Shown here: in pieces, positions 1-49,756 of the stretch
How positions within the stretch are numbered: position 1 is the stretch's first letter
Layout of the letters: the number at the start of each line of letters is the position of its first letter
DNA from: Gracilaria domingensis
Taxonomy: Eukaryota > Rhodophyta > Florideophyceae > Gracilariales > Gracilariaceae
NCBI GenBank assembly: GCA_022539475.1
Contig: VCMS01000028.1
Span: forward strand, 92,534 to 156,533
Reading direction: 5' to 3'
Length of the DNA stretch: 64,000 bases
Program-made: the position numbers and the translations under genes
The notes under the pieces: model-generated
Seen by the model: the letters and a program-made list of their open reading frames with translations, nothing else
Database searches by the model: none
Told to the model about the DNA's origin: nothing

Positions 1-257
1 CTAGGCTAATTTGACACCAGTTCGGTTCTACAGTCACCAATTGGTAAGTCTAGTAGTCCTCTAATAGTTTTGCTGACCTCGAGGGTTATACGTGCCTGCC
101 GCACACCAGTGCAGGCGTATTTACCACTTGGTCACCGTGCACTATAGGCAACGGTGGGTGCTGCCGACCTATTAGGTGTCACGTGTTTCACTCCTCCGCC
201 GGGTCGAGCCCACGCAGGGCTCCCCACTAGCAGCTCGCACCGATCGGCTATACCACA
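1..257 (+). repeat. 5' LTR, 3' portion
   Basis: Identical to 10496-10752 over all 257 bases. It ends in ...TACCACA, after which the two copies diverge. It contains two ACCANNTGGT palindromes (36-45 and 123-132). The left part of this LTR is outside the window. Confidence 0.95.
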
Positions 258-262
258 TATTT

Positions 263-278
263 TGGTCTCCCGACCTAG
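263..278 (+). promoter_or_regulatory. candidate tRNA primer-binding site
   Basis: TGGTCTCCCGACCTAG begins five bases after the 5' LTR end. It starts with TGG, the complement of a tRNA CCA end, at the place where LTR elements carry the minus-strand primer site. The matching tRNA is not in the window, so the priming species is unknown. Confidence 0.5.
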
Positions 279-390
279 AATTTGTGGATTACCAAGTGGT
301 TTTTGGAAAGGGGGGATTTGGAAGTCACGAGATACCTGAGTGGTTTGGTTGCCGTTGCCGAAGCAATTTGCTCCGACACCAGTTACCTAA

Positions 391-2658
391 ATGGAGAAAC
401 GGAGCGTCCGTCACCCAAATAGGGCGCCGAGCGCTCCACCAAGTGGTCACCCCATACGGGGTTCAGTGTCCTATCCGGTGTTGGATAACCCGGAGGACCT
501 GATTAGGAAGGAACGCCCACCGAGGGGGAAGAAGGTAGACCGAGAGGCTGGGGGCCCCTCGACCCTTCCCCGGGCTGACCAAGTGGACGGAGGAGCAGGC
601 TCCGCAAGGGCGGAGCCCGCTCCTGTAACAACCCCAGTGGTAGACCAAATGGAGGTGCCAGTCGGACCGCGACTGGACTTGGACGAGGTCACCCGAGTGG
701 TAGTTGATCGAGCCTCCCAGGAGGTCCTCGACAAGGTACCTGTGGTGGTGTTACAGTACCTCAAAAACGAGGTGCGAGGACACATCGACCGATTGGGTAT
801 GCTGGCTCTGCAGCAGCAGGGGGCTAAGCTTCAACCTGAGATGGTGGCCCAGGCCGCGCTCATGAAGCAAGCTCCCCCGCCTGCAGTAGACGCCACCAAA
901 CCACTTGGTATTCTCCACCCTAACCTTCCTACAAAACCGACTGGTGAAGGATTTATCGACCGCATGGGGAAAGGGGCCGAGCCTCCAGGGATGGAGGGCC
1001 CGAGGTACGTTTACCTCCCCCAACCTACTGGTGTAGCTCCGTCAGGACCAAGTGGTGGAGACCCTGATGGAGATTCGTCGAGCTCAGGAGACGAGCGTCG
1101 ACGTAAACCAAATGGTAAGAAGAAGAAAACCAAAAGGGGAAAGAGAAAGAGTCGCCGGTCGGACTCGGACTTTTCGTCCTCAGACACCGATTCGGATTCG
1201 TCAGGAGACGACGACCGTACAGGTTCACGACGCAAGAGGAAGGACTCTCGCAAGAAGAAAGGAAAGAATCCCCGCAAGGGTAAGACCAAAAGGTATAACG
1301 ATTCGGACTCAACTTCCGACGAGGAGACTGACCTAGAGGTGCTTACGCCGCTCAATGATTTATTCACCAAAGCGGTTGACTATCGTACCTATAGGTTAGA
1401 GAACAGACAGGCTGAGTATACCAAAGAGGTAGCTCAGAAGATAACGAAGCATCATAGGAAGCTTCGTTTCCAACTGGGTGAAACTCGCTTTAGCGGGGAT
1501 GACCCTATTGCGATCATTGATTTCCTTCAAAGGTTCAAGATCGCTTGTGATCAGAATGGGTTTTCAGAGGCAGCAGCCATGTGGCTGTTTCAATTTTACC
1601 TAACTGGTCAGGCTGGAGCGTTGCTCCACAGCCGCCTCCAAGGGAACACCATGGCGGTGGACGAAGACCAAACGGAAATGTTGACAACATACCCACAGGT
1701 GGTTAACTTCCTACTGGAAACCTACGCGACCGATGAGGTAATCCAGGAGGCGTACGCAGAGGTGCTTGCGTACCGCCAGCGCGCGGGACAAACCGAATTG
1801 GAATTCGCTCGCTCCTTATGGGCATTAGCCTCCCGCTGTGGAAGCGTCTTTACTACCAAAAGGTTGAAATCGATGTACGCCGACAACGTGGCGAAGTCTA
1901 TCCGATCACAGGTTCGTAACTACCTAGCTACCAACCGCACGGTCGACTACAACGCACTAGCCCGCCATGCACAGGGACTAGGCGACACCGTTCGGTCAGG
2001 GGCCAGGAAAGACTCCGCACCACTCGGCAAACCATCGAAGGAGAAAGGAAAGACCAGGCGGTCAGTGTTTGACGTAGAGGAAGAGGAGACCACTACGGGG
2101 GAGGCGTCCACACAATACGCCTCCCAGGGTCACCCAGTCCACTTGGTGCATGCACAACCGACAACTCGATCGCACGGTAATACCTCTTGGTCCAGCTCGC
2201 TATCCAGCGAGCCACCCTCGAGACAAACCTCAGCTCCACCATCACAGGTATCCGTACCGGTCAGCCCGGTCCTAGCGGTACCATTCAAGCAATATGGTGA
2301 ACAAGGACCATACCCGCAGCAACGGAGTGCAGTACCTACTGGAGGCCGTCCTCCATCGCGCGCGTCGTCGCTCGCAATGAAGGACCCCACAACCGGCAAT
2401 CTCCTCTGTTGGTTCTGTTTGTCGCCCCACCACTTGGCAACAGCGTGCCCAAGTGTGGCTCCGCAGAACAGGAACGCTCTCCTGACTGCTCGCCAGCAGA
2501 ACCACCAGGATATATTTGGGCCCCCGGCACGGAGCGCAGGCACGGGACACGCAAATGCGCGACCCAATGCAGCCACACCTCATCAGGTACACCTCGTCAC
2601 GGAGCAGGACCAAACGGATCCCGCCCCGCAGGCGGAAAACGCCGAACAGTTGGGATAG
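391..2658 (+). CDS. gag: Gag polyprotein of Ty3/Gypsy element
   Basis: 755 codons from ATG 391. Residues about 225-330 form a long charged tract of alternating Lys/Arg and Ser/Asp clusters. Residues about 365-520 resemble the retrotransposon gag domain (RFSGDDPIAIIDFLQRF, then an alpha-helical stretch). A CCHC zinc knuckle is at C673-x2-C676-x4-H681-x4-C686. The protein should form the particle and bind the element RNA. The last part overlaps the pol frame by at least 250 bases, and pol lies in the -1 frame. The ACCANNTGGT palindromes in gag are read in more than one codon phase, so they do not reflect a repeated peptide. Confidence 0.93.
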   Translation: MEKRSVRHPNRAPSAPPSGHPIRGSVSYPVLDNPEDLIRKERPPRGKKVDREAGGPSTLPRADQVDGGAGSARAEPAPVTTPVVDQMEVPVGPRLDLDEVTRVVVDRASQEVLDKVPVVVLQYLKNEVRGHIDRLGMLALQQQGAKLQPEMVAQAALMKQAPPPAVDATKPLGILHPNLPTKPTGEGFIDRMGKGAEPPGMEGPRYVYLPQPTGVAPSGPSGGDPDGDSSSSGDERRRKPNGKKKKTKRGKRKSRRSDSDFSSSDTDSDSSGDDDRTGSRRKRKDSRKKKGKNPRKGKTKRYNDSDSTSDEETDLEVLTPLNDLFTKAVDYRTYRLENRQAEYTKEVAQKITKHHRKLRFQLGETRFSGDDPIAIIDFLQRFKIACDQNGFSEAAAMWLFQFYLTGQAGALLHSRLQGNTMAVDEDQTEMLTTYPQVVNFLLETYATDEVIQEAYAEVLAYRQRAGQTELEFARSLWALASRCGSVFTTKRLKSMYADNVAKSIRSQVRNYLATNRTVDYNALARHAQGLGDTVRSGARKDSAPLGKPSKEKGKTRRSVFDVEEEETTTGEASTQYASQGHPVHLVHAQPTTRSHGNTSWSSSLSSEPPSRQTSAPPSQVSVPVSPVLAVPFKQYGEQGPYPQQRSAVPTGGRPPSRASSLAMKDPTTGNLLCWFCLSPHHLATACPSVAPQNRNALLTARQQNHQDIFGPPARSAGTGHANARPNAATPHQVHLVTEQDQTDPAPQAENAEQLG

Positions 2659-5600
2659 AGGCCTTCCCCAACTGTCCGAAGACGGAAGGCCTTCCAGAAC
2701 CAAGTGGTGCAAGTATGGACAATTACCCATTGGTTACAGGGGAGGAGAGCCTCATGGACGGCACCGAACCGATATGCTTTCTCAAGCATAGTAACTATAA
2801 GGTAAACGTCACCCTCGGGTTTACTTCTAACCACTTGGTACCATGCGTCACTGTCCTGGACACCGGGGCAGGACCCAATCTGGTGAATGCCAAACTATTA
2901 ACTAACAGACAACTTAATAAGCTTCAGCCATGTACATTAACTAACCCACTGGTTGACGCCAACAACAGACCACTAACCGTCATGGGAGCGCTTACCATAA
3001 TGGTATTGATTGACACCATGAGGGTCCGAGTTCGCTTCATAGTCGTTAACCAACTGGCAACAGACTGTATCCTCGGCACAACTTTTATAGACCAGTATGT
3101 CAGGGCAATTTTTCCACGTTCTAAGACAGTTCTGTTCCATAATGGCCCCCGGATCGCCATTATTGGTAACCACAAGGGTGCCTCTACGAAAGAGAACCGC
3201 ACTCAACACCAACCGGTCCCGGAAAACACACTCTCCAACAAGGTGCGATTGGCAAAGGCGGTAACAATAGCGCCTATGAACCACTTGGTAGTGAAGGTCA
3301 CATGCCAACAACCTGGCCTGTTATCCATTCAGAACCATTCACGGTTGGCCGAACGACACATGACCTTAATGGCGAATGGTATAGTCGACAACATACCGAC
3401 AAAACCGTTTCAGGTCTACCTCACTAACTTCAGCAACCGCCCGGTCAAGTTGCCAAAACACACCGTAATTGGTCTTGCCTTCCCGGCTCCCCGTACGATC
3501 TTTACGATTATACCACAATGGTCCCACGAGGTCGTGGATGCTAAGGAAGGGGGGGGCAGTGTCAATTCGTTCAATTCGTCGCGAACAGACCATATGGTGC
3601 AGCGACTAGCTGAGCGAGAAGACCAGAAACTGGAGCTCGACTCAGTGACCAATTGGAAGACGGAGGTGAATATAGGACTTGAAGGGGAAGAGCTCAGAGC
3701 TCGGATCCTTGGACTCCTGGAGCCATTCAGTACCATGTGGTCGGGTAAGCTGGGAGCCATTAAGGCCACCCAGCACAGGATTGACCTCAAACCGGACTCC
3801 CGTCCCATCCACCAACAGCCATACCGCGCGGGACATAAGGCCCGTGAGGTAGAGCTGGAGGAGGTAGAGCGGATGCTCCGCGAGGGGGTTATAGAACCGG
3901 CAAACTCGGAATGGGCTAGCCCTGTAGTGCTAGTCCAAAAACGAGGAGAGACCCGTATGAGGTTCTGTATTGACTACAGAAAACTTAATGCCGTAACGGT
4001 AAGGGACTCGTACCCCATCCCGAGGATGGATGAATGCATCGACTCCCTAGGAGATGCGAACATCTTTACCACACTGGACGCCAACTGCGGGTATTGGCAG
4101 ATCGAAATACCAGAGGGTGACCGTGATAAGACTGCGTTTACATGCCACGCAGGCCTGTATCGCTTCTTACGCATGCCGTTTGGTTTAAGAAACGCCCCCG
4201 CTACCTTCCAAAGGGCGTTAGACATCATACTGTCTAAAGTGAAGTGGACAACCGCATTGGTATACATAGATGACGTAGTCATCTACTCGAGGTCCATAGA
4301 GGAGCACTTCTCGCACGTCCAAGTGGTACTGCAGTTGCTACAAGAGGCAGGCGTGACCCTCAAACTACGAAAGTGTATGTTCTTCAACCAAGAGGTAGAG
4401 TACCTAGGGCATACAATAAGCCCCGGGAAACTCGAAGTGACCAAACGGAATATCCGAGCGGTACAGGAAGCGAAGCTCCCTACGTCGCAGACGGACATAC
4501 GATCCTTTATAGGTCTATGCAACGTCTACCGGCGGTTCATCAAGGGTTTTGCAAAGATAGCCGCACCCCTGAACGGGAGGTTGCAGAAGGGGCAGCCCAC
4601 ACACTTTGACCACCTGGAAGAGGACGAGGTAGAGGCGTTCTATACATTGAAAGCAGCGCTTCTCTCCCCACCGGTACTGGCATTGCCCAAAACGGGACTC
4701 CCGTATACACTGGACACGGATGCGTCGGACGCCCAAATAGGTTGCTGCCTAATGCAGGAACAGGAGGACGGCAAGCTCGCACCAATTGGGTATTGGAGTA
4801 GAGCTCTTAACCAAGCGGAGCAGAACTACACCGTAACGGAGAAGGAATGCCTAGCGGTTGTTTGGAGCATGCTCATGCTACGTCCTTACCTATATGGTGT
4901 GCGCTTCACGCTCCGAACGGATCACGACTCCTTGAGGTGGATATTAGGCTTGGCGGACGCATCGGGTCGTCTGGCCCGATGGCGTCTGAGACTCTCGGAG
5001 TTTGAGTACGATGTGCAGTACCGCCCCGGGGTCAAGCACCGAGTGGCGGATGCATTGTCCCGGTTGAATACCGAAGGATTGGACACTGACCCAGTGGACG
5101 ACGACATCCCATGCTTTACTATAGAACTAGCTAACCACGAGGTCAATGAAGTTCTGAAGGGATATTGGCATGATGACAGTACGTACCAAGTGGTAGTGGA
5201 GACCCTCCTTCCTGTGGAGGAAGGGGAACACGCTCCAATCACCCGTGAGGAATTCTTACGCGAACAATCGACCGATAGGTTGTGCAAAACGCTCGCTGAC
5301 GTACTTGGAAGGAAGGATTCTCATTTCGACGTCGACCACAATGGGTACCTCATCAGACGCTCACCTTTAGACGGAGCTCTCCAGAAGGTCGTACCTGAGT
5401 CATTAAGACAAAGGGTGTTATATCTGTCACACAATCCACGGCTTTCGGGGCACCCTGGAGCCACGCGGTTGTACTATACCCTTCGGAGGCAATTCTACTG
5501 GCCGCATATGGCTAACGATGTATATACCTATGTGGCGCAATGCAATTCGTGCATTAAGACCCGGGGTGGTGTGGCGAAGCACAGGAAGTACCTAAAGCTA

Positions 5601-7016
5601 TTCCCGGCGGCGGGGCCCCTGGAATTCGTAGCAATCGACATACTGGGGCCCCTGCCCAAGACCTCAGAGGGTTATCGCTTTGTAGTAGTCATAACCGACA
5701 GGTTCACAAAGCTCACCAGAGCCATACCTCTGAAGAACCAAACGGCAACGACACTAGCGACAGCCTTCCTGGAGAATTGGGTCTACCCGTACGGTGCTCC
5801 CATGTACCTACTGACCGATAACGGTTCGAACCTAGCTTCTAAGTTCTTCGAGGCGGTTTGTACAATGCTAGGAGTCAAGCACTACTTTACCACGGCCTAT
5901 CATCCGCAAACAAACGGCCAAGTGGAACGCTTCAACAAGACCCTAGTGGCACGCCTACGGCACTATGTCGAAGAGCACCAAACCACATGGTCGGAGTATG
6001 TCCAACCATTGACATATGCGTACAACCTCCAGGTCCAAAGGGTCACTCAAACAACCCCATTCGACCTGGTACTTTCGCGAACACCACATGGTATTATCGT
6101 CCAGCCCGGACCTGACCGCTCGGAAGCGGCCGGGACACTCACACCGGCGAAGGTCAAGAGAGACATACTCCAGAAGTTACGCGCCGCTTTGGCTGCTGCC
6201 AAAGTTAAGATGACAGCAGCCCAAGAACGGTATAAAGCGGACTATGACCGAACGGTGAGCAAAGTGACCAAAGTGGTAGCAGGAGACATGGTCTTCCTTG
6301 ACGTGCCACCAAAAGGTAAGCGACCAACCCCAGCGGAGATGGAAGAGGACATCCGCCTTGAGGAGGATATCAATTCTAAACTACTACCCAAGTCCACGGG
6401 ACCATACAAGGTGATTCGCTCCGACGAGCATACCGCTACGGTCATAATGGAAGGTTTGGAGAACACGGTCTCCATCGACAGGATTGTCAAGGCCGCACAA
6501 CCGACGACAGCGAATGCACAACCAATAGGTGAGCCAACGCAGCAGGAAGCGGAGAGGGAGCAAACGTCTCCCATACCCCCTCCTATGATGAGTCAGCCGA
6601 GCGGTCAACCTTCCACCAGAGCCGTAACGGCTGACCCCACGACCCAAGCGGCACAGGAGATCGAGCCTAGGCAAGACCAACGGGTCACACCACCCACGGG
6701 GAGCCACGCACCCCATGACCAAATGGAAGAGTCACACCCTCAAGTAGACACTCAGGAGTGCGCTATTGACACCATTGTAGGTCACGAACACACCACAAAG
6801 GGTATGCGCTACCGGGTAAGATGGTATGGATGGTCGCCCGAGCACGACTCTATGGAACCACCTGGTCATATCCCTAACAACTTCATCATCCGATACTGGC
6901 GCAAACAAGGGCGAACGCCCCCACCAACTGGTATTGCTTCGCGTGGTACGCGCGCTAAGGAAAGGGGGGGGGTTATCGAAGCCGTTGAACGCCACGCTAC
7001 ACGAAAAGCTAACTAA
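2409..7016 (+). CDS. pol: Pol polyprotein (PR-RT-RH-IN-chromodomain)
   Basis: Open for 1535 codons in the -1 frame relative to gag. The frame opens at a TTG, not an ATG, so expression by -1 frameshifting from gag is the natural reading; I see no textbook X_XXY_YYZ heptamer. Aspartic protease: LDTGAG near residue 149. Reverse transcriptase: FCIDYRKLN near 517 and the catalytic YIDD near 618. RNase H: DTDASD near 768. Integrase: HHCC zinc-binding region near 1007-1050 and DDE residues in AIDILG (1074), LTDNGS (1134) and GQVERF (1170). Chromodomain: about 1446-1497, with YRVRWYGWSPEHDS. Chromodomains of such elements guide integration to particular chromatin. No stop or gap interrupts the frame, so the enzyme looks intact. 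Confidence 0.96.
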   Translation: MVLFVAPPLGNSVPKCGSAEQERSPDCSPAEPPGYIWAPGTERRHGTRKCATQCSHTSSGTPRHGAGPNGSRPAGGKRRTVGIEAFPNCPKTEGLPEPSGASMDNYPLVTGEESLMDGTEPICFLKHSNYKVNVTLGFTSNHLVPCVTVLDTGAGPNLVNAKLLTNRQLNKLQPCTLTNPLVDANNRPLTVMGALTIMVLIDTMRVRVRFIVVNQLATDCILGTTFIDQYVRAIFPRSKTVLFHNGPRIAIIGNHKGASTKENRTQHQPVPENTLSNKVRLAKAVTIAPMNHLVVKVTCQQPGLLSIQNHSRLAERHMTLMANGIVDNIPTKPFQVYLTNFSNRPVKLPKHTVIGLAFPAPRTIFTIIPQWSHEVVDAKEGGGSVNSFNSSRTDHMVQRLAEREDQKLELDSVTNWKTEVNIGLEGEELRARILGLLEPFSTMWSGKLGAIKATQHRIDLKPDSRPIHQQPYRAGHKAREVELEEVERMLREGVIEPANSEWASPVVLVQKRGETRMRFCIDYRKLNAVTVRDSYPIPRMDECIDSLGDANIFTTLDANCGYWQIEIPEGDRDKTAFTCHAGLYRFLRMPFGLRNAPATFQRALDIILSKVKWTTALVYIDDVVIYSRSIEEHFSHVQVVLQLLQEAGVTLKLRKCMFFNQEVEYLGHTISPGKLEVTKRNIRAVQEAKLPTSQTDIRSFIGLCNVYRRFIKGFAKIAAPLNGRLQKGQPTHFDHLEEDEVEAFYTLKAALLSPPVLALPKTGLPYTLDTDASDAQIGCCLMQEQEDGKLAPIGYWSRALNQAEQNYTVTEKECLAVVWSMLMLRPYLYGVRFTLRTDHDSLRWILGLADASGRLARWRLRLSEFEYDVQYRPGVKHRVADALSRLNTEGLDTDPVDDDIPCFTIELANHEVNEVLKGYWHDDSTYQVVVETLLPVEEGEHAPITREEFLREQSTDRLCKTLADVLGRKDSHFDVDHNGYLIRRSPLDGALQKVVPESLRQRVLYLSHNPRLSGHPGATRLYYTLRRQFYWPHMANDVYTYVAQCNSCIKTRGGVAKHRKYLKLFPAAGPLEFVAIDILGPLPKTSEGYRFVVVITDRFTKLTRAIPLKNQTATTLATAFLENWVYPYGAPMYLLTDNGSNLASKFFEAVCTMLGVKHYFTTAYHPQTNGQVERFNKTLVARLRHYVEEHQTTWSEYVQPLTYAYNLQVQRVTQTTPFDLVLSRTPHGIIVQPGPDRSEAAGTLTPAKVKRDILQKLRAALAAAKVKMTAAQERYKADYDRTVSKVTKVVAGDMVFLDVPPKGKRPTPAEMEEDIRLEEDINSKLLPKSTGPYKVIRSDEHTATVIMEGLENTVSIDRIVKAAQPTTANAQPIGEPTQQEAEREQTSPIPPPMMSQPSGQPSTRAVTADPTTQAAQEIEPRQDQRVTPPTGSHAPHDQMEESHPQVDTQECAIDTIVGHEHTTKGMRYRVRWYGWSPEHDSMEPPGHIPNNFIIRYWRKQGRTPPPTGIASRGTRAKERGGVIEAVERHATRKAN

Positions 7017-7110
7017 CTAACCTAACAGGAAAACAAAAGAAGATCAGAGATCACAATGCAAGACACTTTATTAGTCGAGAAGAATCCACGAGAGGGAACC
7101 ACGAGGTGAC

Positions 7111-8502
7111 TTAGGAGGCCTTGGAGGACCCACGGCCACGTCCGCGTCCACGACTGGTTCCACGACCGCGAGCACGTCCACGGGAGGTCCCGCGAGATGA
7201 AGCGGAACCTCCACGACCAGAGGACACCGACATAGGTCCGGCGGAGCTTCCGCCCCCGCCGCTAGCCGCGCTCGGTGGCGCACCACCACTTGGTAAGGGA
7301 GCAGAAGTACCAGCAGGTCCCGCAGGGGTACCGCTGCTGACTACCGGCATGGTATTCGCAGGACCAGTGGGTGGATGGAAGGAAGGCGGTAAGCTAGACG
7401 GAGGGATGCCACCAGAGGTCGGAGGAGCAAGACCACTAGACGGCCCTGCACCGGGGGTCAGACCAGTAGGCGGCCTAGGAGCACCGGACGTCGGCGGAAG
7501 CGGAGCCGAACGGAAACCAGTTGAGAAACCACTTGGTGCTCCTGTCCCAGTACTTGCTGGAGGAAGAGGAACGTTGTGAGGACCAAGCGGAGTATGGAAA
7601 GGTGCCGAAGAATCACCACCAGGAGGTCCACCAGGGAGTTGATACGTACCAAGGCCACCAAAGCCTACCATTGGGGTCGCAGGTTGCTGTGACGCAGGAG
7701 CGTACGGGTTGAAACTTTCCACCGGGGGTCGATGTAACGGCGCGTGGCCTTCCACAAGGTTGCTCAACTGACCAACATAGGCTGTCACCTCACGGTAGAG
7801 ATTGCGCTGGAAGTAGTCGCGGAACTGTCGCAGCTCAGAAGTGCGCCGCTCGTGGTGAGCAACCACGGGGAGCAAGTTGGTAAGAGTATCCACAGCGGTG
7901 AGGATGTCATTGGGACCAGGACGGTTGAAGTGCACCATCGAGGCGTGGTTGAGACGAGCCAGAGCGCTCCGTATCGCGCCACTATCACCACCAGGGGGCA
8001 CCGGATTCACCGGAAGCGACTGGAAACCAACCCGAAGAGGCCCCTGGGCAGCCCGTCCGGGAGGGTGAGCAGCCGCCTGAGGGTTAGCCGGACCACTTGG
8101 AACAGGCGCAGCCACGCTGGTCGGAGGAGTAGCCTGTACAGGTGCCGACGGAGGCAATGCGGGGGACTCATAGTTCTCGGCAGCCACCATCACGGTATCG
8201 TCATTACCAAATGGGTCTTCGCCAGCCATGTGCTGCTGTTGGAGAGGCACGATGCTATGAACCTCCGGGTCGTAGACATCCCAACCCTGTTCAGGCCCCC
8301 AATTGTGGTTACCTACCGCAGTGAGGTAGCCATCCAACTGCTGCGCAGTATATTTGGTGCCCTCCACGATGTTGGAGAGCCCCATGGCACGAATGTCGCC
8401 GACCACATCGTTGGGAATATTGAAGATACGACCAACTGGTTGAGTTCCGCTGATCCCGACAGACTTGTCAGGGCAGCGCGTGTCCCAAGTCACACCTCCC
8501 AC
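7111..8502 (-). CDS. antisense ORF B of the retrotransposon, RG-rich tail, unknown function
   Basis: 463 codons read on the minus strand and ending 94 bases from the pol stop, so the two genes converge. The frame opens at a GTG inside the 3' end of ORF A and has no early ATG, which favours production as a continuation of ORF A by a +1 shift. The first 120 residues look globular (VGRIFNIPNDVVGDIRAMG, LDGYLTAVGNHNWGP). Residues about 190-260 are helical (ELRQFRDYFQRNLYREVTAY). The rest is a Pro/Gly/Ser-rich linker. The last 40 residues are an Arg/Gly/Ser tail (GRGRGRG) suited to nucleic-acid binding. No family recognised. The opposite strand also carries ORFs, but this strand gives the longer and more protein-like product. 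Confidence 0.6.
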   Translation of the reverse strand: MGGVTWDTRCPDKSVGISGTQPVGRIFNIPNDVVGDIRAMGLSNIVEGTKYTAQQLDGYLTAVGNHNWGPEQGWDVYDPEVHSIVPLQQQHMAGEDPFGNDDTVMVAAENYESPALPPSAPVQATPPTSVAAPVPSGPANPQAAAHPPGRAAQGPLRVGFQSLPVNPVPPGGDSGAIRSALARLNHASMVHFNRPGPNDILTAVDTLTNLLPVVAHHERRTSELRQFRDYFQRNLYREVTAYVGQLSNLVEGHAPLHRPPVESFNPYAPASQQPATPMVGFGGLGTYQLPGGPPGGDSSAPFHTPLGPHNVPLPPASTGTGAPSGFSTGFRSAPLPPTSGAPRPPTGLTPGAGPSSGLAPPTSGGIPPSSLPPSFHPPTGPANTMPVVSSGTPAGPAGTSAPLPSGGAPPSAASGGGGSSAGPMSVSSGRGGSASSRGTSRGRARGRGTSRGRGRGRGSSKAS

Positions 8503-9523
8503 GGTCGGTCCAATAGTTGGTATCTAAAGGGCGCTCGAACGCGACGTAATCCAGATCGACCTCGATATGGGTAGCAGGTTCGTCCAAGCGGTGAAGGATA
8601 TCGACCAAACGGCGAAAGTAGTGGACCTCCCCATCGCAGCGGATGAAGGGGAGATCCGACGGTATGGCCACGGGGATATAGTACAGGAACTTCGTGTGCC
8701 GCTGCCGCGCATGGAAACACTGTTGTCGACCGAACCGGCTCTGCTTCTCGCCCTTGCGTGGTGGAGGAGGCGCCATAGGCACCGCTTCCAAGCGGCGACA
8801 ATCCCAACGGGCAATCGTAGTATACTGCTGCAGACTCATGTGGCGAAACCGCAAGGGGCAGAAGGAGGAACTGATGTGGAAAGGCCAGTTCCCCAGAGCG
8901 ACCAACTCGGTAGAGACATCAGCAAATCGCGCACCATAGTGGGCATGCGGCTGCCCGTGCGTCCTGTTAAGGTCATGAGGATTCAGCTGTTGAGCTTCCA
9001 CCGTACCAGCGACCGCAAGAGGGTTGACGCTGCTTGGACCGGCGGCGCCCGCATAAGGATCATACCCACCGCGACCGTACGGATCTTGACGAGCGCGTGT
9101 ACTCGACCGCGTGTTGGGTTTGAAGATGCCACCGCCACGGCCGCGCGCCACCCCAGGGGTTTTGCCGGACATCCTCGACCGGGCGACAGCGGTTTCGCGA
9201 ACCGAGCGGGTGGCTTCCGATGAGGGGGAAACTTCAGAAGCGGAATATCCCTTTATAGGGTCGTAGTGCGGCTCATCCAGTACCAATTGGTTGGCCACCA
9301 CGGGGGCCTCAGCGCCCGATGGAATGGACACGGGTGTACCGGCCTGGCATGGCAGATAGAGCTGCGAAGGTTCAACCGTGTGGTAACTCGACTGAAGCGG
9401 CGCTGCTTCGTCCCCGTGATCTACCATATTGGAAGGAGAGGGAGCGGTAGTCTCTTCAGTTTCGTCTTCACGGCGTTCGAACGTCATTGACCACCCCGTT
9501 GGGGAGGCTGGTCGTTCACCCAT
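8468..9523 (-). CDS. antisense ORF A of the retrotransposon, unknown function
   Basis: 351 residues from ATG 9523 on the strand opposite gag-pol; the frame is open upstream to a TTG at 9574. I do not recognise the family. The N-terminal half is rich in Ser, Pro and acidic residues, with a Gly/Arg patch (VARGRGGGIF). The C-terminal half looks like a folded domain with many aromatic residues (FLYYIPVAIP, VHYFRRLVDILHRLDE, EVDLDYVAFERPLD). It runs directly into antisense ORF B, which overlaps it in the +1 frame, so the two probably make one protein through a frameshift or a tiny unseen intron. Extra antisense genes between pol and the 3' LTR are known in some plant LTR elements. Whether this one is expressed is inference. 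Confidence 0.65.
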   Translation of the reverse strand: MGERPASPTGWSMTFERREDETEETTAPSPSNMVDHGDEAAPLQSSYHTVEPSQLYLPCQAGTPVSIPSGAEAPVVANQLVLDEPHYDPIKGYSASEVSPSSEATRSVRETAVARSRMSGKTPGVARGRGGGIFKPNTRSSTRARQDPYGRGGYDPYAGAAGPSSVNPLAVAGTVEAQQLNPHDLNRTHGQPHAHYGARFADVSTELVALGNWPFHISSSFCPLRFRHMSLQQYTTIARWDCRRLEAVPMAPPPPRKGEKQSRFGRQQCFHARQRHTKFLYYIPVAIPSDLPFIRCDGEVHYFRRLVDILHRLDEPATHIEVDLDYVAFERPLDTNYWTDRGRCDLGHALP

Positions 9524-10355
9524 GGGGTATGAAAGGAGCGGAATGGAGCGAGAGCGCGCCACGGAGGATACCAATTGGAAAGGGGAACACCACCACTTGG
9601 ATGACAGATGAGACCTGAGGGGTCACGGAGAACTCGCACGCTCGAGTGAGCTGACACACCGTGAAAATGACCAGATTGGTGCGCAGGCTGCACGAGTTTC
9701 GGGAACACGAGAAGTCACAACCACCACGAGGGGGCCGTGTGCCGATCGGTCGACAACTACGAACCCCACCGACGGGAAGCTCGAAACCAACTGGTAAGCA
9801 GGGACTAACCCGCCCAGGGGGAGGACGGACAGGGGAAGATGGAGTGGCTGACTCCTCCGGGAGGGACCGAAGAGGCGAAGACAACCACGTGGTACCAGGC
9901 GCGCGACAAGATCAACCTGAATGGTCGCGGTTCGCGGTTTCGCGTTCCAATACCACGAGGGATGCAAGGTACGGTCGTACCTACCACAGGGGGTACGGCG
10001 GCGTGGGTAATGGCGCTGCAGGGCATGTGGCGAGCCGCGCCGTGCACCGCGCCGTCTCCGCGTCATCGCGAGACGTGTTGTGCGCCAGGCGACGCGCGCC
10101 AACGACCGTTTGGCGAAAAGGCGGCAACCGCCGTGGGAACTTCGCAGCCACGGGGCGTGCCTGTCGGTAGGAGGGGGGTCTGTAGTATAGCTCGGCCAGA
10201 TCAACGGGGGCTCTACAAGACCAAGTGGTGACGTCACGGGCTCCCGGGCACGTGTGCCTCCTGTACCACGTGGGACGCGCAAGCGCAGGCTTGGACAAGA
10301 CTAATTAGTTTATTCTCGTTAATTTAGAATTAATATTTACTAGGTAGTGTAGATA
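9524..10355. other. non-coding 3' region of the retrotransposon
   Basis: Between antisense ORF A and the presumed 3' LTR. Open frames here (for example 9623-10282 minus) are arginine-rich and look accidental. The stretch holds eight CCANNTGG palindromes, two with the CCACGTGG form. It is where a promoter for the antisense gene would be expected; I cannot point to one. Confidence 0.5.
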
Positions 10356-10752
10356 TGTGGCCGGGGTGATGCACCACAAATGCACCTCCCGGTGGCCCAC
10401 GTGGCACTAGGCCCGTGAGAGCCGGAGGGGCGCTCGGGTGTACTAAACCCCCGAGACGCCAACCTCCCACACCAAATGGTAAAGTCAAGCACCAACTAGG
10501 CTAATTTGACACCAGTTCGGTTCTACAGTCACCAATTGGTAAGTCTAGTAGTCCTCTAATAGTTTTGCTGACCTCGAGGGTTATACGTGCCTGCCGCACA
10601 CCAGTGCAGGCGTATTTACCACTTGGTCACCGTGCACTATAGGCAACGGTGGGTGCTGCCGACCTATTAGGTGTCACGTGTTTCACTCCTCCGCCGGGTC
10701 GAGCCCACGCAGGGCTCCCCACTAGCAGCTCGCACCGATCGGCTATACCACA
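10356..10752 (+). repeat. 3' LTR (left border tentative)
   Basis: 10496-10752 is identical to the 5' LTR at 1-257. The left border is not fixed by that match because the 5' copy is cut. TGTGG at 10356-10360 is the inverted complement of the terminal CCACA at 10748-10752 and would give a 397-bp LTR. No convincing polypurine tract stands before it, so the border is uncertain. The right border is marked by the return of Copia coding sequence at 10753. Confidence 0.75.
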
Positions 10753-12380
10753 CGAAGACGCTACAACAAGCACGCAAATACCCAGATGCAAACAAATGGC
10801 AGTCAGCTCCCGACAACGAACTCCGAAACATCGATGCACACAACAGCATCAAGTGGTTACCGCAATCTTTTACACCGCCTCAGCAGCAGATCATTCCGCT
10901 AATGATGCTATACCGATACAAGCGGTCAGCAGAAGGCCACATTACACAAAGGAAAGCAAGATGCAACCTCCGAGTTGACCTCATGAAACCAGGTCTACAA
11001 TTTGATCCAACACACACCACCACACACACCGCCGACCGCACCACACAACGCATGCTTCTTGCACTCCACGCCGCCCATGACCTCCCCCTCGAACACTTTG
11101 ATATCAAATCGGCATATCTTCACGAGAAATATGATCACGACAAACCAATCTATGTTCGACAGATGCCCAGTTTCGATGGCAGCTACCAGCATAATAGCAA
11201 GTATGGTCATTTGATTGGCAACTTATACGAATCACCACCCGTCGCATACTTCTACAACTTCGGCCTTCAACAATTCCTAACCTCCATAGGATTCACCAAA
11301 TCAGAACATGACCCCTGTCTGTACATGCTCACCAAAGGAAAAAATTACACACTGGTCAGCACAACAATCGACGACTTCCTAGTTCTTGCATCACCATCTT
11401 CCCTCATAGACGACCTCTACCAGCAGCTTCTAACCAAATACAAAGTGAAACGACTCGGCACCCCAACTCGGTTCCTCAACTGGACCATAACACGAACGCA
11501 GAAAGGAACCCATATATCCCAACCCGACACTATCTACGCATTATTGACGCAAACAGGAATGGCCGAATATAATCCCAACAGAACACCATATAACACTCAG
11601 AAGCCACTCGACCACCAAAAACAAACAAAAACATCAACAGCAGCAGAGGCTAAACGCTACCGCCAAACGCTCGGCAAAATACGCTACATTACCGACAACA
11701 CGCGCTCCGACATCACGTACGCCACCAACAGACTCGCACAGCACATGGCTGCACCTCAACAACACCCCAACCAAGCGCTCAAATCTCTTCTCAGGTATCT
11801 GAAAGGCACGCGCACGTATGGGCTCTACTATCAAAAGATAACACACAACCAAACAGCGCCTTCCCTTGCGGTCTACAGCGATGCAGACTATGCCAATGAG
11901 AAAGACCGCAAATAAATCAGCGGTACAGTTCACTTCATACACTCTACACCAGTTTCATGGACATCCCGACGCCAGAATGTTGTAGCCATGTCCACCACTG
12001 AGACGGAATACATCTCTGTGAACAAAGCAACACGACACACGACTTGGATAAACAAACTTCTTAAGGACGCCAACGATGTAGAAACCGAACCAACTTCGCA
12101 CTTTATCGACAACCGGTCAACAATACTCATAGCACAAAGTCAAGCTTTCAAAAAGCGCCGCAAATACATAGATATTAGACATCATTACCTGGAACACCAC
12201 GTCAACGATTGAAGAATCAAACTGCAGCGAATTCTTTCAGCTGACATGAAAGCCGAAATCTTCACAAAACCACTTCCTTTCGACCGCTATGAACTTCTCG
12301 GCGACCAGCTTCAAGTCACCTTCCGACGCGCAAAATGCGATGCATCAACGGGGGACTGTCAAACAGCCATCATGTCTTGA
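10753..12380 (+). pseudogene. Ty1/Copia RT-RNase H remnant, interrupted by the Gypsy element
   Basis: Translating from 10753 gives Copia reverse transcriptase (LEHFDIKSAYLHEKYD, TTIDDFLVLASP, LGTPTRFLNWTI) followed by connection and RNase H (PVSWTSRRQNVVAMSTTETE; DIRHHYLEHHV; EIFTKPL). Two stops break the single frame: TAA at 11913-11915 and TGA at 12210-12212. The upstream half of the gene (gag, protease, integrase, RT start) lies beyond the Gypsy element, outside the window. The RT palm motif is IDDF where YVDD is usual. It contains no ACCANNTGGT palindrome, unlike its invader. An old, inactive element that later served as the Gypsy target. Confidence 0.92.
12346..12380 (+). repeat. polypurine tract and start of Copia 3' LTR
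   Basis: A G-rich tract ending at about 12355 is followed by TGTCAAACAG from 12357, the usual kind of start for a Copia LTR, just before the end of the RNase H frame. I could not find a matching ...CA end, so the LTR length is unknown. Confidence 0.45.
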
Positions 12381-20917: not shown

Positions 20918-22192
20918 CTATGATCTGGAGTTAGAGTTTGCTTGGTGTGATCTTGCTACGGCGGAAGGAGTTAGCGAGAGTTCTCCGTAATGCGGAACAT
21001 TTGAAGTATCTTTGCGAACTTCAGCTCGTGGGCTAGTTAAATCCAGGGCCATATTGACAAGATCCGGACCTGAAGCATTTTGTTTTCGGTTGGGAAGGGA
21101 CGTGGAGCGCGGGGTTTGGGCCGTTTTTCTGTACATCTTCGCTTCCTTTAGAGCCCTAGCCTTGCGTTCGTATATGAAGACGCCGGCGATGGATATGACG
21201 ATACCAACACCGTTTACGGGTGACAAGCGTTCGTTGAAGTAAAAAATGGCAATGACCGCGATGCAGACTCGCTTGAAGGTATTTGCAACCGAGTAACTCA
21301 GCGGGGAAATGAGATTGAGCGTGTTAAATGCCAATTGAGAGGCTGCAAAATTGACTAGCCCAGCGAGAGCTAACCCGGCTGCAACTGGCCATGACGGTGC
21401 TAGAAAGGTATGAGCGGGCAGGTCATGCGCAACAATGTGGTAAGATAGTTGCACAAGACTTCCTGGCGACATGATGGCGAGAGAAATGGCAGACAAGTAG
21501 ATCTGGAGTGACACGGGGTCGATACGTTCTTTGCCGAAAAGAACTTTGGAGTAAATGTTCTGGGTGTTGTTGATGGCAGTAGACAACACCGCCGCCACAA
21601 AACCGATGATGGCGACAAGGAACTCTGCACTCGAAACGGAAGCACTGTGAATCTCGTCAATGCTGGTTAGAGCGACTCCCAGGATGATGGGTAGGAGCGC
21701 CCACACGACAGAGGCTGGGGGACGATGACCGAAAAAGACAAGTTCCAGCAGCACATTGAAGAGGGGGCCTAGGGATCGAATGGTATTGACGAGATTGACG
21801 GACACGCGTGCAAGCGAGGCGTACTTGAGCACTTCCTTGACGAGGAAGGCGGCGCTTAGGGGGACGATTGCTCGCAGTTGCGCACGGGTCAGGACAGCGA
21901 GCGGACGTACCTTGAGTACTTTTGTGAACAAAAGACCAAAGAGCACAGAGGAAGCAAACTGCCACAGGGTGAAAACAGCCTCATTGATCTCGAAGACATG
22001 TAAAACATGCTTGGCTAAAAAGAGACTGGCGAGCGAAAACGAAAACCAGCCGGATATAAAAAGCGCAACCTTGACACCGGGAAGGAAGTTATTGATGCGG
22101 GTAACAGTGGAGGAAGACGAGAGCGAGGATGAGTCAAACAGGCGGCGTGCCGGCGTGGGCATGTCTCGGTGGGCGCTACCCCCCATACCCAT
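20918..22192 (-). CDS. TPT-family sugar-phosphate/nucleotide-sugar transporter
   Basis: 424 residues from ATG 22192, no intron. About ten hydrophobic segments from residue 38 to 345. The last segments (SVANTFKRVCIAVIAIFYFNE then SPVNGVGIVISIAGVFIYER) match the signature end of the triose-phosphate translocator / SLY41 group (PF03151); KYASLARVSVNLVNTIRSLGPLF fits the substrate-path helix. The N-terminus is short and Ser-rich, so it could be a plastid transit peptide or a plain cytosolic tail. The C-terminal 60 residues are hydrophilic. It should exchange phosphorylated sugars or nucleotide sugars across a plastid or Golgi/ER membrane; which one is not decidable here. Confidence 0.88.
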   Translation of the reverse strand: MGMGGSAHRDMPTPARRLFDSSSLSSSSTVTRINNFLPGVKVALFISGWFSFSLASLFLAKHVLHVFEINEAVFTLWQFASSVLFGLLFTKVLKVRPLAVLTRAQLRAIVPLSAAFLVKEVLKYASLARVSVNLVNTIRSLGPLFNVLLELVFFGHRPPASVVWALLPIILGVALTSIDEIHSASVSSAEFLVAIIGFVAAVLSTAINNTQNIYSKVLFGKERIDPVSLQIYLSAISLAIMSPGSLVQLSYHIVAHDLPAHTFLAPSWPVAAGLALAGLVNFAASQLAFNTLNLISPLSYSVANTFKRVCIAVIAIFYFNERLSPVNGVGIVISIAGVFIYERKARALKEAKMYRKTAQTPRSTSLPNRKQNASGPDLVNMALDLTSPRAEVRKDTSNVPHYGELSLTPSAVARSHQANSNSRS

Positions 22193-22931
22193 GAGGAAGG
22201 TTTGAGAGGGACAGGTCGAAAGTATATGAGCGAGAGAACGCGGAGTGGGAGGTCAGCGGCGGGACAGGGGCGTGGGGCGAGACATGCGCGGTTGGGGAAG
22301 GGCGGGGGAGGGGTCGACGGGGGGCAGGCGAGAGACGGCGGGCGTGTGAAGCGGGCAGAAGCGATAGCTGCGCAGCTTTTGGGGTCGGCAGCGTGCGGCA
22401 ACGCGATAGCAATTGCCCAGTCGGCGAGCACTACAGCGGTGACCGTCTCATTATTTTACACGGCGAGCGCGCTGCCTTGCCTGGTGGGAACGCCGCCTGA
22501 CAGCACGTCACCAGTCGCGCGCCTTTCTACAAGGTGCCTGCCTTACAGTCCACGAAAAGCAATTCCCGCGCAAGTTCCGAGCCAGAGGGTTGGAGGCTAG
22601 CCTCAGCCTTTCTAACGTACGCATTGTGCGCCCGCCTGGCAATGTGGGTCATCGAGCGCTGTGAGACACGGATCGCACACGGTGCCCCCGAAGCGGTCAA
22701 CCTCGTCAAGTACGTCGTGCAGTTGAAGAGCGGGTATCCTCAAGGATAGCCTCCCAGAGGCTATCCTTGGGTGCAAAGGTACGCGCCCTGAAGGTAAAAC
22801 AATCCTACCGGCTCGCACTGTTCCTTCGGAAACCGTGCAGCCAAACCGCTGACGTCACTGGCAGTGACCCGTGCTAATATTTTGCATCGGCTGCCACACC
22901 CGCATTGCCTGTTGCCACGCATGATGTAACC
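22193..22931. other. intergenic with a 13-bp hairpin carrying AAGGATAGCC
   Basis: Upstream of the transporter and downstream of the CGL160-like gene. Perfect 13-bp arms at 22741-22753 and 22757-22769 enclose a CCA loop; each arm contains AAGGATAGCC, a decamer seen elsewhere between genes. The remainder is GC-rich near the transporter start, with no gene seen. Confidence 0.6.
22741..22769. repeat. perfect inverted repeat, 13-bp arms, 3-nt loop
   Basis: Arms 22741-22753 and 22757-22769 around CCA. Could be a transcription terminator-like hairpin or a dimeric protein-binding site. The arm core AAGGATAGCC also occurs at 14995 (inverted), 24072 and 55454. Confidence 0.85.
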
Positions 22932-23696
22932 TCAATCAAAAGCCTCGCCGGTCAGCAGCGGAACCAGCACCGCCACCTTGTACGAGAAGAAGCCCGCCAG
23001 CACGGGGATTACCGACAGGTATTGCGAGTTCTTCGCCGACGCGATCACAAGCAGCACCAGAAGGGCGATACGTGCCGGTTGCAGGCTGTCCGCAGCGCCT
23101 TGTCCGCTTTGTCGAGCGCTTTCGCCGAGTCTGTCCACGCTTCGACTCAGTAGAGACACGTACGCAATAGACCCGCCCAGGCCCACTGCGAACGACTGCA
23201 CGTCCTTCATGCCACCAAAGGCCCAAATAGCACACAGCCCGAGCGCACCGACGAATAGCGTGTCGCCTAGCAGTTTGTTGCGAAGCGCTTTGTACTGCGT
23301 CAAGTCTGCTTCTGAATCGCCGCCCGCCCTGTCCACCTCAGCCTTCTTTGTCGCATCCGAGCGCTTGGAAGTTGACTGTCTATCGCTTCGAAGAATGCTG
23401 CCCTGAGCTTCCTTTGCAATGTCTTTCGAAATTCGTTGCGGGCCGTACTTTCGTTCCGCCCAGCTAAGCTCCGCCAGGTACTGCTGGTTCAAGTCTGGAA
23501 TGTTGTCATATTGTGATTTGGCACGCCGCTTTGAGTCCTCCAGTGAGTTTGCGCGCACGGTCTGGCGCGAACGTCCACGGTTTGTTTGAGAGCGCACGGT
23601 TCTCGGCACACCTCGCACATTTATCTTCAAGCCTCTCGCCCAGCTCGAAACTTTCTCGCTACTCACTGCAGTCACATGTACAAACGCGCAACTCAT
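22932..23696 (-). CDS. CGL160/AtpI-like plastid membrane protein (ATP synthase assembly)
   Basis: 254 residues from ATG 23696. The first 55 residues are basic and Ser/Arg/Thr-rich like a transit peptide. A hydrophilic domain follows (DLNQQYLAELSWAERKYG). The C-terminal part starts LTQYKALRNKLLGDTLFVGA and has four hydrophobic segments (about residues 145-165, 168-190, 205-222 and 226-248). This arrangement and the YK-x-LR-x-KLL-x-DTL entry match the AtpI/CGL160 family, which helps assemble the c-ring of chloroplast ATP synthase. If correct, it shows the host is photosynthetic. No introns seen. Confidence 0.75.
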   Translation of the reverse strand: MSCAFVHVTAVSSEKVSSWARGLKINVRGVPRTVRSQTNRGRSRQTVRANSLEDSKRRAKSQYDNIPDLNQQYLAELSWAERKYGPQRISKDIAKEAQGSILRSDRQSTSKRSDATKKAEVDRAGGDSEADLTQYKALRNKLLGDTLFVGALGLCAIWAFGGMKDVQSFAVGLGGSIAYVSLLSRSVDRLGESARQSGQGAADSLQPARIALLVLLVIASAKNSQYLSVIPVLAGFFSYKVAVLVPLLTGEAFD

Positions 23697-24614
23697 GATG
23701 CACGGCCTAGAGCAAGTCACACAAGCGATACCATGCTAACGAATAGTTCAGAACGGTTTGTGTAAGAGCAACTCCGATAATTGACCTCACTTCAACCGTC
23801 GAGATGATGTTGCGTCCGAGCATGCATGCAGAAAAATAGAATTTCTGAGATCTCTTTTGCAGTTCGTAGAATTATGGCACACAGTAGTTAGATATCTTCA
23901 CGCCCCCCGGTGCTTCGATGCTGGCGTACGAACTTTCGTACACATGTACAGACGAGCTGCTCGCTACGAACACCTACGAGATCATCTCTTAAAGAGTTAC
24001 TTGCTTCAAAAAGTTTGTATCATATATGCGAGATGGTACGAAATTCGTACTAGGAAGATATCGAAGGATACAAGGATAGCCCTTATCTCATCGGTACCAA
24101 AGGGAGATGAATGAGACACGAAGATGAGTGTAACGCCAGATCGTTACGGGCTTGGAACGCAGCTTGGGGAGTTTATTGGGGATGCCAAACGTTTTGACTC
24201 TTACCTCTATTCGTAGACGCCAGCCAACAAATAGCCGTGTCATGCCCACCAGACTATTACCTTCGCATGAAGCATAACGAAACTAGGTCCCTAATGGTAC
24301 TGCGAAGGCTGAAGCGCTTCGCTGCCGTTGATTATCATCTTTACCCTTGTACCTCTTCTTTTTCCGCTTAGTCCAGTCTCCACTCAGACCAAAGCAACGT
24401 AACCATTTCGTTCCGTTCATTCAAGTCCAGAGTAGGAGGCGAGGAGGGCGAAAAATTTGAACTCTTCTGGAGGTTTCTCGCTCACCGCACAGCATTTACG
24501 TATCATGGTGAAGTCAAATTAAGCTTTACCCGTAGCAGCCATTAGCTCTCCCTACGTAACCACCGGGGTGGGCCAAAGTCCATGTACGTTTTTGCGCACC
24601 ACACGTAGTGGGGA
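23697..24614. other. intergenic
   Basis: AT-richer spacer. One AAGGATAGCC decamer at 24072-24081. The 85-codon open frame at 23857 lacks features and is not called. Confidence 0.4.
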
Positions 24615-29893: not shown

Positions 29894-30280
29894 TCATCTT
29901 CGGAAACGAGGGGGCTTCCTGGGAGGTGGGCGACGCACGAATGTAGAAGCAATCAACGAAAACGTTTGAGAAAACGCACTCCGCATGGAAGGAACCTGAA
30001 GAACAAGAAGAGCTGCTGGGGCTGTCACCACCGCATTTGTAGCGATGGCGTTCATATACTTTGTTTGGAACGATTTCTTTCTAGTCTTGTGATGTGCAAG
30101 ATACATTGCAAGAATGCCACCTGCCCACCCACCGGCAACTGCCATATCACACAGCTTTTTCTCTGGCACGCGCCACCCTCTGTGCGCTGCTTGATATTTA
30201 TCATAGGCCACCAGACAAGCAGAAGCCGTGTTAACTCCGGCCAAATACACCAACGTTGCACGCGCAAGTAAGCGGGACAT
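29894..30280 (-). CDS. DUF1294 small membrane protein
   Basis: 128 residues from ATG 30280. The central block (VAYDKYQAAHRGWRVPEK, then LAMYLAHHKTRKKSFQTKYM) carries the DUF1294 landmarks: YDK-x2-A, WR-x-PE, GG-x-G and HKT-x-K-x-F. The family is common in bacteria, where it is a 90-130-residue inner-membrane protein of unknown function; scattered eukaryotic copies exist. Three hydrophobic segments lie at about residues 5-25, 47-65 and 83-100. The Arg/Pro-rich C-terminus (RRPPPRKPPRFRR) is an addition. It sits alone in AT-rich DNA, and a bacterial origin is plausible. Confidence 0.78.
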   Translation of the reverse strand: MSRLLARATLVYLAGVNTASACLVAYDKYQAAHRGWRVPEKKLCDMAVAGGWAGGILAMYLAHHKTRKKSFQTKYMNAIATNAVVTAPAALLVLQVPSMRSAFSQTFSLIASTFVRRPPPRKPPRFRR

Positions 30281-31248
30281 GAGGCGGTTCTGCAGAGCAC
30301 CAGAGGCGAGGATATATTCAGTTCAAAGAACAAGAGATGTAACGGAATCGAAAGCGGCTATCGCGGTATGGCCGTTCGTCAACGACCTCTCCCGATCAGT
30401 CAGTCAATGCCGTAGATAGTGGGAGCTGTGAAGTGAAGCACTCTCGTTAGTTTGAAAATGGTGAATAGATCTCGAGGTTTAAGACCGTCATGTCCAGCAG
30501 ATGGCGAATCGGCAGAGGTGTGTTGGTACTGAAAGCACCAGAGGTACACGGTTTGCTTGTTGTTGCTTGCTTGAAAGTTTTTGAGGCATGGAAGAGCGAG
30601 CACGTAAGATAACAATACCTTGGTTATATACCTGTATAACATTTACCTTCGGTATCTAGATACCAAGGGTACTGGATATCTTAGATAAAACAGCAGATAC
30701 CCCGCGCTGTCGTGCCGCACACTCGTGTCGTTGGCGCACCTCGATGGGTCATTTTTTGCGAAAATGAGCTAGATGTGGGACAAAGAACCGTACGGTAGCC
30801 TGGAAGGCTACGCTTGGTGTCCCACAGTGGGATACAGTACAAGGGTCACAATGGCAGGCCGTGAAGAGGATTTGTTTGATCCGAACGATGAACTTTGATG
30901 CACAAAAGCCTGTCTTGAACTCCGCTCTGCGCCCTACGTGATAAACCTTAAAAGATATCTGTTGCCCGAGACCAGCTCATCTCCACTGGTAAACCGTACA
31001 AGGGCACCCATTCTCTTTAGAAATTGTCTTGCCCTTGTACGAGTATCTCTTGCTCGTTGCTCTTCGAGTTTCTGATTAGAAACAAGATTGCTATTCCTCA
31101 GCTCCTGTTCCGGGTTTGGTTCATTCACCAAAAGAAGGCAAGCTTGGACGACAACACTGACAAACGGAAGTGTTCTTTTTCCCAAGAATAAGTTTGGTGA
31201 TCATCCTACCCTCGAAGCAAGAGGAAACATCCTCTAAATCTTGTACTA
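30281..31248. other. intergenic with a 14-bp palindrome
   Basis: Perfect palindrome GGTATCTAGATACC at 30651-30664, in a stretch with further copies of TACCTTGG / CCAAGG. It contains the 5' flank of the NELF-C/D gene. No gene seen. Confidence 0.5.
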
Positions 31249-49679: not shown

Positions 49680-49756
49680 CGCAGTCTCGCCAATATATTC
49701 TACTTTGCTTCAGATCAAAACTGTGCAATGATGATCGCCGCGGCCCACCACTGCTC

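Follow-up and report, generated by a model that had tools for sequence, protein, structure and literature searches.

Along an 11,067-bp LTR (long terminal repeat) retrotransposon of the red alga Gracilaria domingensis, a short palindromic DNA dyad, CC-N4-GG, recurs every ~50 to 90 bases, genes included, in an excess that is independent of the encoded protein sequences. The element occupies the left end of a 64,000-nucleotide stretch (contig VCMS01000028.1, positions 92,534 to 156,533, of assembly GCA_022539475.1; hereafter the window), carries a conserved gene on the strand opposite to gag and pol (the antisense gene), and belongs to a group (hereafter A) whose relatives in the same genome show, in the copies sampled, the same dyad with family-specific spacing. 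That selection at the DNA level keeps the dyads, irrespective of the protein sequence, is well supported by the observations laid out below. As to their function, our judgement is evenly balanced on the proposal that the dyads are binding sites of the element's own antisense protein, which would act as a dimer and coat the element against silencing, each family serving itself only.

The dyads along the element

An original prediction, made from the letters of the window, had described 27 exact copies of a 10-bp palindrome, ACCANNTGGT, scattered through one retrotransposon; the count is confirmed, with all 27 copies in the element (Table 1) and none in the other ~53 kb. For CCANNTGG, of which about 45 sites in 10.75 kb had been claimed, we counted 59 in the window (46 within positions 1-10752, and 13 over the 53,248 bases that follow), and the second form noted as frequent, ACCAANCGG, occurs 9 times in 1-10000 and not beyond (either strand, 2-kb bins). 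In a scan of palindromes with 4-letter half-sites and spacers of 0-7, ACCA-N2-TGGT came out on top (25 in 1-10495 and 0 elsewhere; runner-up 5), so that the palindrome stands as the top-ranked word, although not as the basic unit: of the one-mismatch sites in 1-10495, 35 of 36 leave CC and GG intact and deviate at the A/T positions alone, from which it follows that the core is the looser dyad CC-N4-GG and that ACCANNTGGT is its strongest form. Dinucleotide shuffles predict 72 copies of this core in 1-10495, where 194 are found (z 14.4); a tail of excess extends over N5 to N7, and the inverted counterpart GG-Nx-CC stays at z <= 1.8 for all x from 0 to 10. As had been claimed for the sites, the dyads run through all parts of the element, at 15.6-25 per kb in the LTR, gag, pol, antisense gene and 3' part (the last taken as 9575-10495, a boundary drawn without the true LTR start); the leader, 133 bp long, has 7.5 per kb, and the remainder of the window 2.7 per kb. 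Other genomic copies agree, as 26 of 30 fetched pol loci near-identical to that of the window carry 8 exact sites (the others 7, 7, 7 and 5).

The excess persists when protein sequence is accounted for. In codon-preserving shuffles (synonymous codons permuted within each gene, leaving protein and codon usage unchanged), gag is expected to hold 0.2 exact sites and pol 2.1, vs 4 and 10 seen (z 7.5 in pol); for CC-N4-GG, 48 were seen and 26.2 expected in gag, and 68 and 32.9 in pol (z 9.5). Since neither dinucleotide nor codon-preserving shuffles reproduce the excess, composition alone is excluded. Split by codon phase, the CC-N4-GG sites of pol number 12 in phase 0 (12.0 expected), 13 in phase 1 (6.1) and 43 in phase 2 (14.4): there is no excess in phase 0, whose letters are dictated by the amino acids; it lies in the phases that can be reached by synonymous change. 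The earlier statement that the sites fall in all three codon phases is thus accurate for pol and not for gag, whose four sites share one phase, whereas the selection at the DNA level that had been deduced from it is upheld by the shuffles. An equal density in host genes was not seen: neither ACCA..TGGT nor CC-N3 to N6-GG is in excess in four other long open reading frames (ORFs) of the window (three matching the host-type Pfam families lipase, NAD-binding and WD40, and one without a match) or in the neighbouring copia ORF (codon shuffles, z -2.0 to 1.1), the latter being also devoid of ACCANNTGGT. All in all, the observation behind the original prediction is confirmed and its interpretation is partly supported.

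Sister families and the antisense gene

Outside A, we sampled parts of seven copies of other Ty3/gypsy groups in the same genome, and the dyad proved not to be peculiar to the element of the window: CC-Nx-GG is in excess in five other groups, each with its own preferred spacers. Relative to dinucleotide shuffles (seen/expected), N3 is preferred in C (L064 and L065: 88/38 and 102/36, with N4 second), N5 and N4 in A2 (L063: 91/30 for N5 and 75/29 for N4) as well as in B (L061 and L062: 120/59 for N5 and 97/61 for N4, the N4 forms including CCGTACGG), and N4 in D (L066, pol part only: 36/15); in the 2 kb of E (L067), N6 is preferred (22/8.3, z 5.0). Of 1632 dinucleotide dyads compared in an open scan, CC-Nx-GG took first place in A2, in D, in E and in each of the two C copies, and second place in A and B; in F (L068) and in five host stretches it fell outside the top five. 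Furthermore, the flanking letters vary between groups (the inner letter is mostly A in A, and mostly G in B, E and F), and A and B have a common N4 geometry with different letters (ACCA..TGGT vs CCG..CGG).

Conservation between diverged copies, which would be expected of selected sites, is apparent in the two C copies (pol synonymous divergence, dS, 0.365). Four-fold C/G wobble bases are conserved in 83 of 93 and 81 of 88 cases within CC-N3-5-GG cores, vs 153 of 201 and 156 of 206 outside them (p 0.008 and 0.001, each copy in turn as reference); taken separately, N3 and N4 give p 0.03 to 0.25, and control spacers of 7-9 show no difference. Moreover, A site positions are kept more often than in codon shuffles in A2 (17 of 53 vs 8.2), B (10 of 64 vs 6.8) and C (15 of 60 vs 6.3), as are positions between the two C copies (52 of 64 vs 19.5), under a null that ignores general selection for sites and, for the C pair, recent common descent.

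The antisense gene sits between pol and the 3' LTR and was found in 5 of the 7 groups sampled (A, B and C, together with matches adjoining the E and F stretches read). In A, 21 of 30 fetched copies hold it as one stop-free frame of 905-942 amino acids (aa), the copy of the window being split by a ~0.3 kb deletion near 8493-8504. The proteins are homologous, with ~27-42% identity between groups: 27% for A vs C (129 invariant columns in an alignment of three sequences, two of them from C), 32% over 270 residues for A vs B, 38-39% for C vs B, and 33-42% for C vs further families, several of which have stop-free frames of ~620-830 aa. An RG-rich tail ends the A and B proteins. Ten A copies were compared with a single reference (L036), and the eight of these non-independent comparisons that had more than a handful of changes gave a ratio of nonsynonymous to synonymous substitution (dN/dS) of 0.08-0.14 in residues 362-560 and of 0.12-0.17 in residues 251-361, which marks the middle of the protein as constrained. 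Genome searches placed the reverse-transcriptase (RT) segment of the element in at least 112 places, the C-terminal antisense piece in at least 97 and the N-terminal one in at least 114 (counts of scored candidates, hence lower bounds). Outside this genome, no homologue was met at E <= 0.001 with the N-terminal piece of the window, in a search limited to proteins of 0.55-1.75x the query length (full-length relatives were thereby excluded), nor with the three-sequence alignment (7990 candidates scored); absence from this collection, which may be poor in eukaryotic proteins, is weak evidence.

The antisense gene of A is also a mosaic. Its 5' part comes in two N-terminal types (L031-L060; window ~8400-9730) that are ~15% apart, with a proportion of synonymous differences (pS) of ~0.30; the C-terminal parts of the same copies are similar (pS ~0.02; 0.09 in L060) and the flank beyond the N-terminal part is again 95-96% identical, as if a cassette had been exchanged. 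Between L064 and L065, the antisense gene reaches a pS of 0.753 (synonymous sites saturated) vs 0.289 in pol, a disparity that suggests antisense-gene exchange between lineages here as well.

Candidate readers of the dyads

The form of the sites, palindromic with a preferred spacer and an unconstrained centre, most readily suggests recognition by a dimer on double-stranded DNA, and a dimeric DNA-binding protein would fit the lack of a comparable GG-N-CC excess too. As the spacers differ between the sampled families, one host factor would hardly serve them all, and an element-borne, family-divergent gene is the simplest reader. On this basis we propose that a dimeric protein would bind the CC-Nx-GG dyads on double-stranded DNA, that DNA-level selection would maintain them all along the element, largely via synonymous codon choice, and that the reader would most likely be the product of the antisense gene, varying between families along with spacer and flanks. 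Once the element is integrated, the protein would cover it and sustain its expression against host silencing, each family's protein protecting its own family alone; this anti-silencing purpose we infer by analogy with VANC of Arabidopsis (see below). More tentatively, the dyads may amount to an address code, in which the antisense dimer would measure its own CC-Nx-GG spacing and the family would write its address more than 100 times through its own genes by synonymous choice, protecting only itself. Spacer shifts would then found new families without cross-reaction.

Several observations weigh against the antisense protein as reader, or against the reach of the evidence for it. It has no recognised DNA-binding domain: known zinc-finger patterns (including Zn2Cys6 and C2H2) are lacking in four antisense sequences, PDB gave no match up to E 5, and Pfam (up to E 5) gave none for the whole A protein or the B pieces and sub-threshold ones only for C (DUF883, E 0.27; Prominin, E 0.0085). 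Its constraint in A is moderate in residues 1-250 (dN/dS 0.25-0.32) and weak or unmeasurable in the C-terminal part (0.30-1.14), and the same dyads accompany both N-terminal types. The A2 copy L063 is dense in dyads and shows no recognisable antisense gene in the stretch read (it may be a dependent element using the protein of other copies, or a damaged copy), and the D copy, which looks truncated after pol, is without an antisense match in its stretch. The antisense gene of C itself has no dyad excess in L064 and a weak one in L065 (N3 z 2.5; codon shuffles), so that the coating would be incomplete. Each spacer class outside A is represented by one or two copies, and F, whose 1.5 kb is too short to call, gives weak signals at N5 (z 2.3) and N6 (z 2.4). 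Wobble conservation is not significant for A/A2, A/B and A/C, where synonymous sites are saturated; better conservation at sites was seen in the C pair, the one pair short of saturation. The inverted dyad is not entirely flat either: under codon shuffles GG-N4-CC is slightly high in A gag (z 2.1) and A pol (z 2.6) and GG-N5-CC in C pol (z 2.5-3.3), and in the stretch of E read GG-N5-CC stands at z 2.8. Finally, the sites are spaced more evenly than random (coefficient of variation 0.71 vs 0.87, p 0.006, for sites picked by a matrix trained on the same element), which lends weak support, as two control dyads of the element, GG-N4-CC and AA-N4-TT, also lie ~0.10 below random.

In L063, dyads are dense after pol (positions 3600-6000 of that copy).

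Among the alternatives, an outside chance has to be granted to another protein of the element (integrase with its chromodomain, or Gag) as the reader of the dyads on double-stranded cDNA, where it would serve condensation, import or protection, or prevent self-integration. Such a role requires sites over the LTRs and all internal parts, as is the case here, and would accommodate the dyads of L063 and the zinc-knuckle pattern in A gag. On the other hand, B has dyads and yet a gag without a CCHC pattern, and the pol proteins of A, B and C are 48-54% identical over most of their length (a figure of overall identity; spacer-linked differences were not looked for). Moreover, a palindrome with a minimum spacer is unusual for Gag binding.

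We consider it improbable that the dyads serve as targets for host DNA-binding proteins of one family, with the elements gathering sites so as to recruit activators or insulators. Dimeric host factors with half-site and spacer codes do exist (Zn2Cys6, nuclear receptors, MADS), and genome-wide counts (elements included) of ACCA-Nx-TGGT are above those of the reversed patterns for each spacer counted (forward/reversed: N1 1854/1002, N2 4164/1620, N3 3109/1727, N5 2695/2001), the ratio for N2 being the highest among the patterns counted and CCGTACGG standing at 1280/745. However, several spacer classes per genome would need several host factors, one per element family, and CC-N3 to N6-GG are without excess in two of three host stretches of the window, the third having N5 at z 4.0. 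This local CC-N5-GG excess lies in otherwise plain host sequence (22000-34000). The letters that are kept do not match bHLH factors either: a host bHLH protein on an E-box (invariant CANNTG core), which the original prediction had put forward as a candidate, was rejected, given that the inner A/T of CANNTG is retained in 0.58 of the A matrix sites and the outer CC/GG in 0.99, and that G predominates at the inner position in B, E and F.

Still less probable is a signal at the RNA level, with the genomic RNA forming small hairpins or carrying packaging signals. It is true that pol folds slightly more stably than its codon-preserving shuffles (mean z -0.77 sense and -0.76 antisense, 24 folding windows), and that the inner flanks are complementary above chance in A N4 (z 3.5), B N4 (3.1) and A2 (2.3 and 2.7), as are the outer flanks in A N5 (3.5). 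Yet the folding signal is the same on both strands, GG-N-CC would fold equally and shows no comparable excess, 12 of 68 pol sites are self-paired in the local fold (3 of 33 for GG-N4-CC), CCG..CGG and CCA.TGG leave loops of 2 and 1 base, the outer flanks show no covariation in B or C, and the enrichment of left A and right T is equal after correction for base composition. RNA hairpins are an unlikely explanation of the dyads. A functionless by-product of base composition, codon usage or mutation bias is hardly credible, for although the element is CC/GG-rich and dinucleotide shuffles alone give the 72 CC-N4-GG mentioned above, these and the codon-preserving shuffles fall short of the excess, the preferred spacer varies by family, dyad density falls at the end of the element, and the C pair shows better conservation of wobble bases within cores.

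The element, its surroundings and known systems

By its paired LTRs, target duplication, order of RT, RNase H and integrase, and C-terminal chromodomain, the element is a chromodomain-bearing Ty3/gypsy LTR retrotransposon (Pfam order in pol: RVT_1, RNase H, integrase and Chromo, the last at 25.6 bits with a cut-off of 25.1). It is longer than the span of 36..10627 first assigned to it, its 5' LTR beginning 315 bases before the window. The two LTRs, of which the direct repeat first detected was a part, are identical over 572 bp and have CGAAG on either side; their identity indicates a recent insertion. With 4 exact sites per full LTR, two more ACCANNTGGT are to be placed upstream of the window.

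Table 1. Coordinates of the element, its exact palindromes and the adjoining ORF in the window.
Feature	Position	Strand	Remarks
5' LTR, 3' part	1..257	+	first 315 bases upstream of the window
Leader	258..390	+	133 bp; primer-binding site probably TGGTCTCCCGACC, directly 3' of the LTR
gag ORF, 755 aa	391..2658	+	named from its position and one CCHC zinc-knuckle pattern
pol ORF, overlapping gag	2409..7016	+	reverse transcriptase, RNase H, integrase, C-terminal chromodomain
Antisense gene, C-terminal piece, 463 aa, RG-rich end	7111..8502	-	
Antisense gene, N-terminal piece, 368 aa	8468..9574	-	
3' LTR, 572 bp, TG...CA, 4 exact ACCANNTGGT sites	10181..10752	+	
Target duplication CGAAG, right copy, 5 bp	10753..10757	+	adjoins the copia-type reverse-transcriptase ORF
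Copia-type reverse-transcriptase ORF (Pfam RVT_2)	10671-11915	+	at the right edge of the insertion
27 exact ACCANNTGGT sites	36..10627		starts 36, 123, 291, 438, 900, 1047, 1107, 2699, 2830, 3280, 3589, 3732, 5185, 5982, 6083, 6857, 6923, 7285, 7528, 8431, 9282, 9786, 9884, 10220, 10471, 10531, 10618

Elsewhere in the window we noted a nuclear RNase P RNA gene (48866-49227, minus strand; Rfam RF00009, 80.4 bits), which marks the host as a eukaryote, a GC content of 0.74-0.76 in 44000-48000, and a strong CC-n1-CC and CC-n4-CC periodicity in 42800-53295.

Spacer codes are familiar from dimeric transcription factors (Zn2Cys6 proteins such as Leu3, nuclear receptors, and MADS proteins on the CArG box), which the proposed antisense dimers would resemble in that the half-site is constant and spacer length separates related proteins. 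Unlike Zn2Cys6 and C2H2 factors, the antisense proteins have neither of these patterns, and dimeric factors with a spacer code are not known to tile the genes that encode them.

A closer functional parallel may be found in the VANDALs, which are Mutator-like DNA transposons and thus, as carriers, unlike the LTR retrotransposon described here. According to the available parts of the reports on Arabidopsis, VANC is a VANDAL-encoded protein that recognises a family-specific motif and removes silencing (PMC5735166), with motif binding and loss of methylation both shown (PMC5735166, PMC10398659); the motif of VANC21, YAGTATTAY, is not palindromic, and its targets are tandem repeats in non-coding parts (PMC5735166, PMC10398659). 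In both systems a short motif is concentrated in one element family, and related families have different motifs together with divergent element-encoded proteins (here, spacer and flanks in A, B, C and E, with few copies per family). They differ in that the palindrome is dispersed, and dense in gag and pol via synonymous choice, whereas VANDAL targets are non-coding tandem repeats; in that families here are told apart by spacer; and in that binding and methylation loss are known for VANC and putative here. By element class and site layout the element is not a member of the VANC system, although its mode of action may be similar.

Antisense ORFs at this position are already known, in as much of the sources as was available, from Retand and other plant LTR retrotransposons, where they lie between pol and the 3' LTR and have a role called unknown, DNA binding being predicted for the TRP28 domain in Retand (PMC11963269, PMC7264820). 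Retand is a non-chromovirus lineage of flowering plants, for which the same portions mention tandem repeats, and not a dispersed target motif (PMC11963269, PMC7264820). The element of the window is like Retand in its Ty3/gypsy type and in the conserved antisense gene that separates pol from the 3' LTR, and unlike it in having a chromodomain in pol and an antisense protein without a Pfam family; as regards TRP28, Pfam gave no match in A and B and none above cut-off in C, the presence of a TRP28 model in Pfam being unchecked. In the open-licence literature, as far as its available parts go, no LTR retrotransposon with dispersed dyads of family-specific spacing came to light.

Taken together, these observations pair the antisense gene of an LTR retrotransposon with a candidate target, a pairing that is open to test by means of one protein and a single probe set and that could yield related proteins with differing spacer preference. 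If the proposal is accurate, a retrotransposon can embed a dense address for protein binding in the codons of its own genes, self-recognition would occur in LTR retrotransposons as it does in VANDALs, and spacer length would be able to separate related selfish families.

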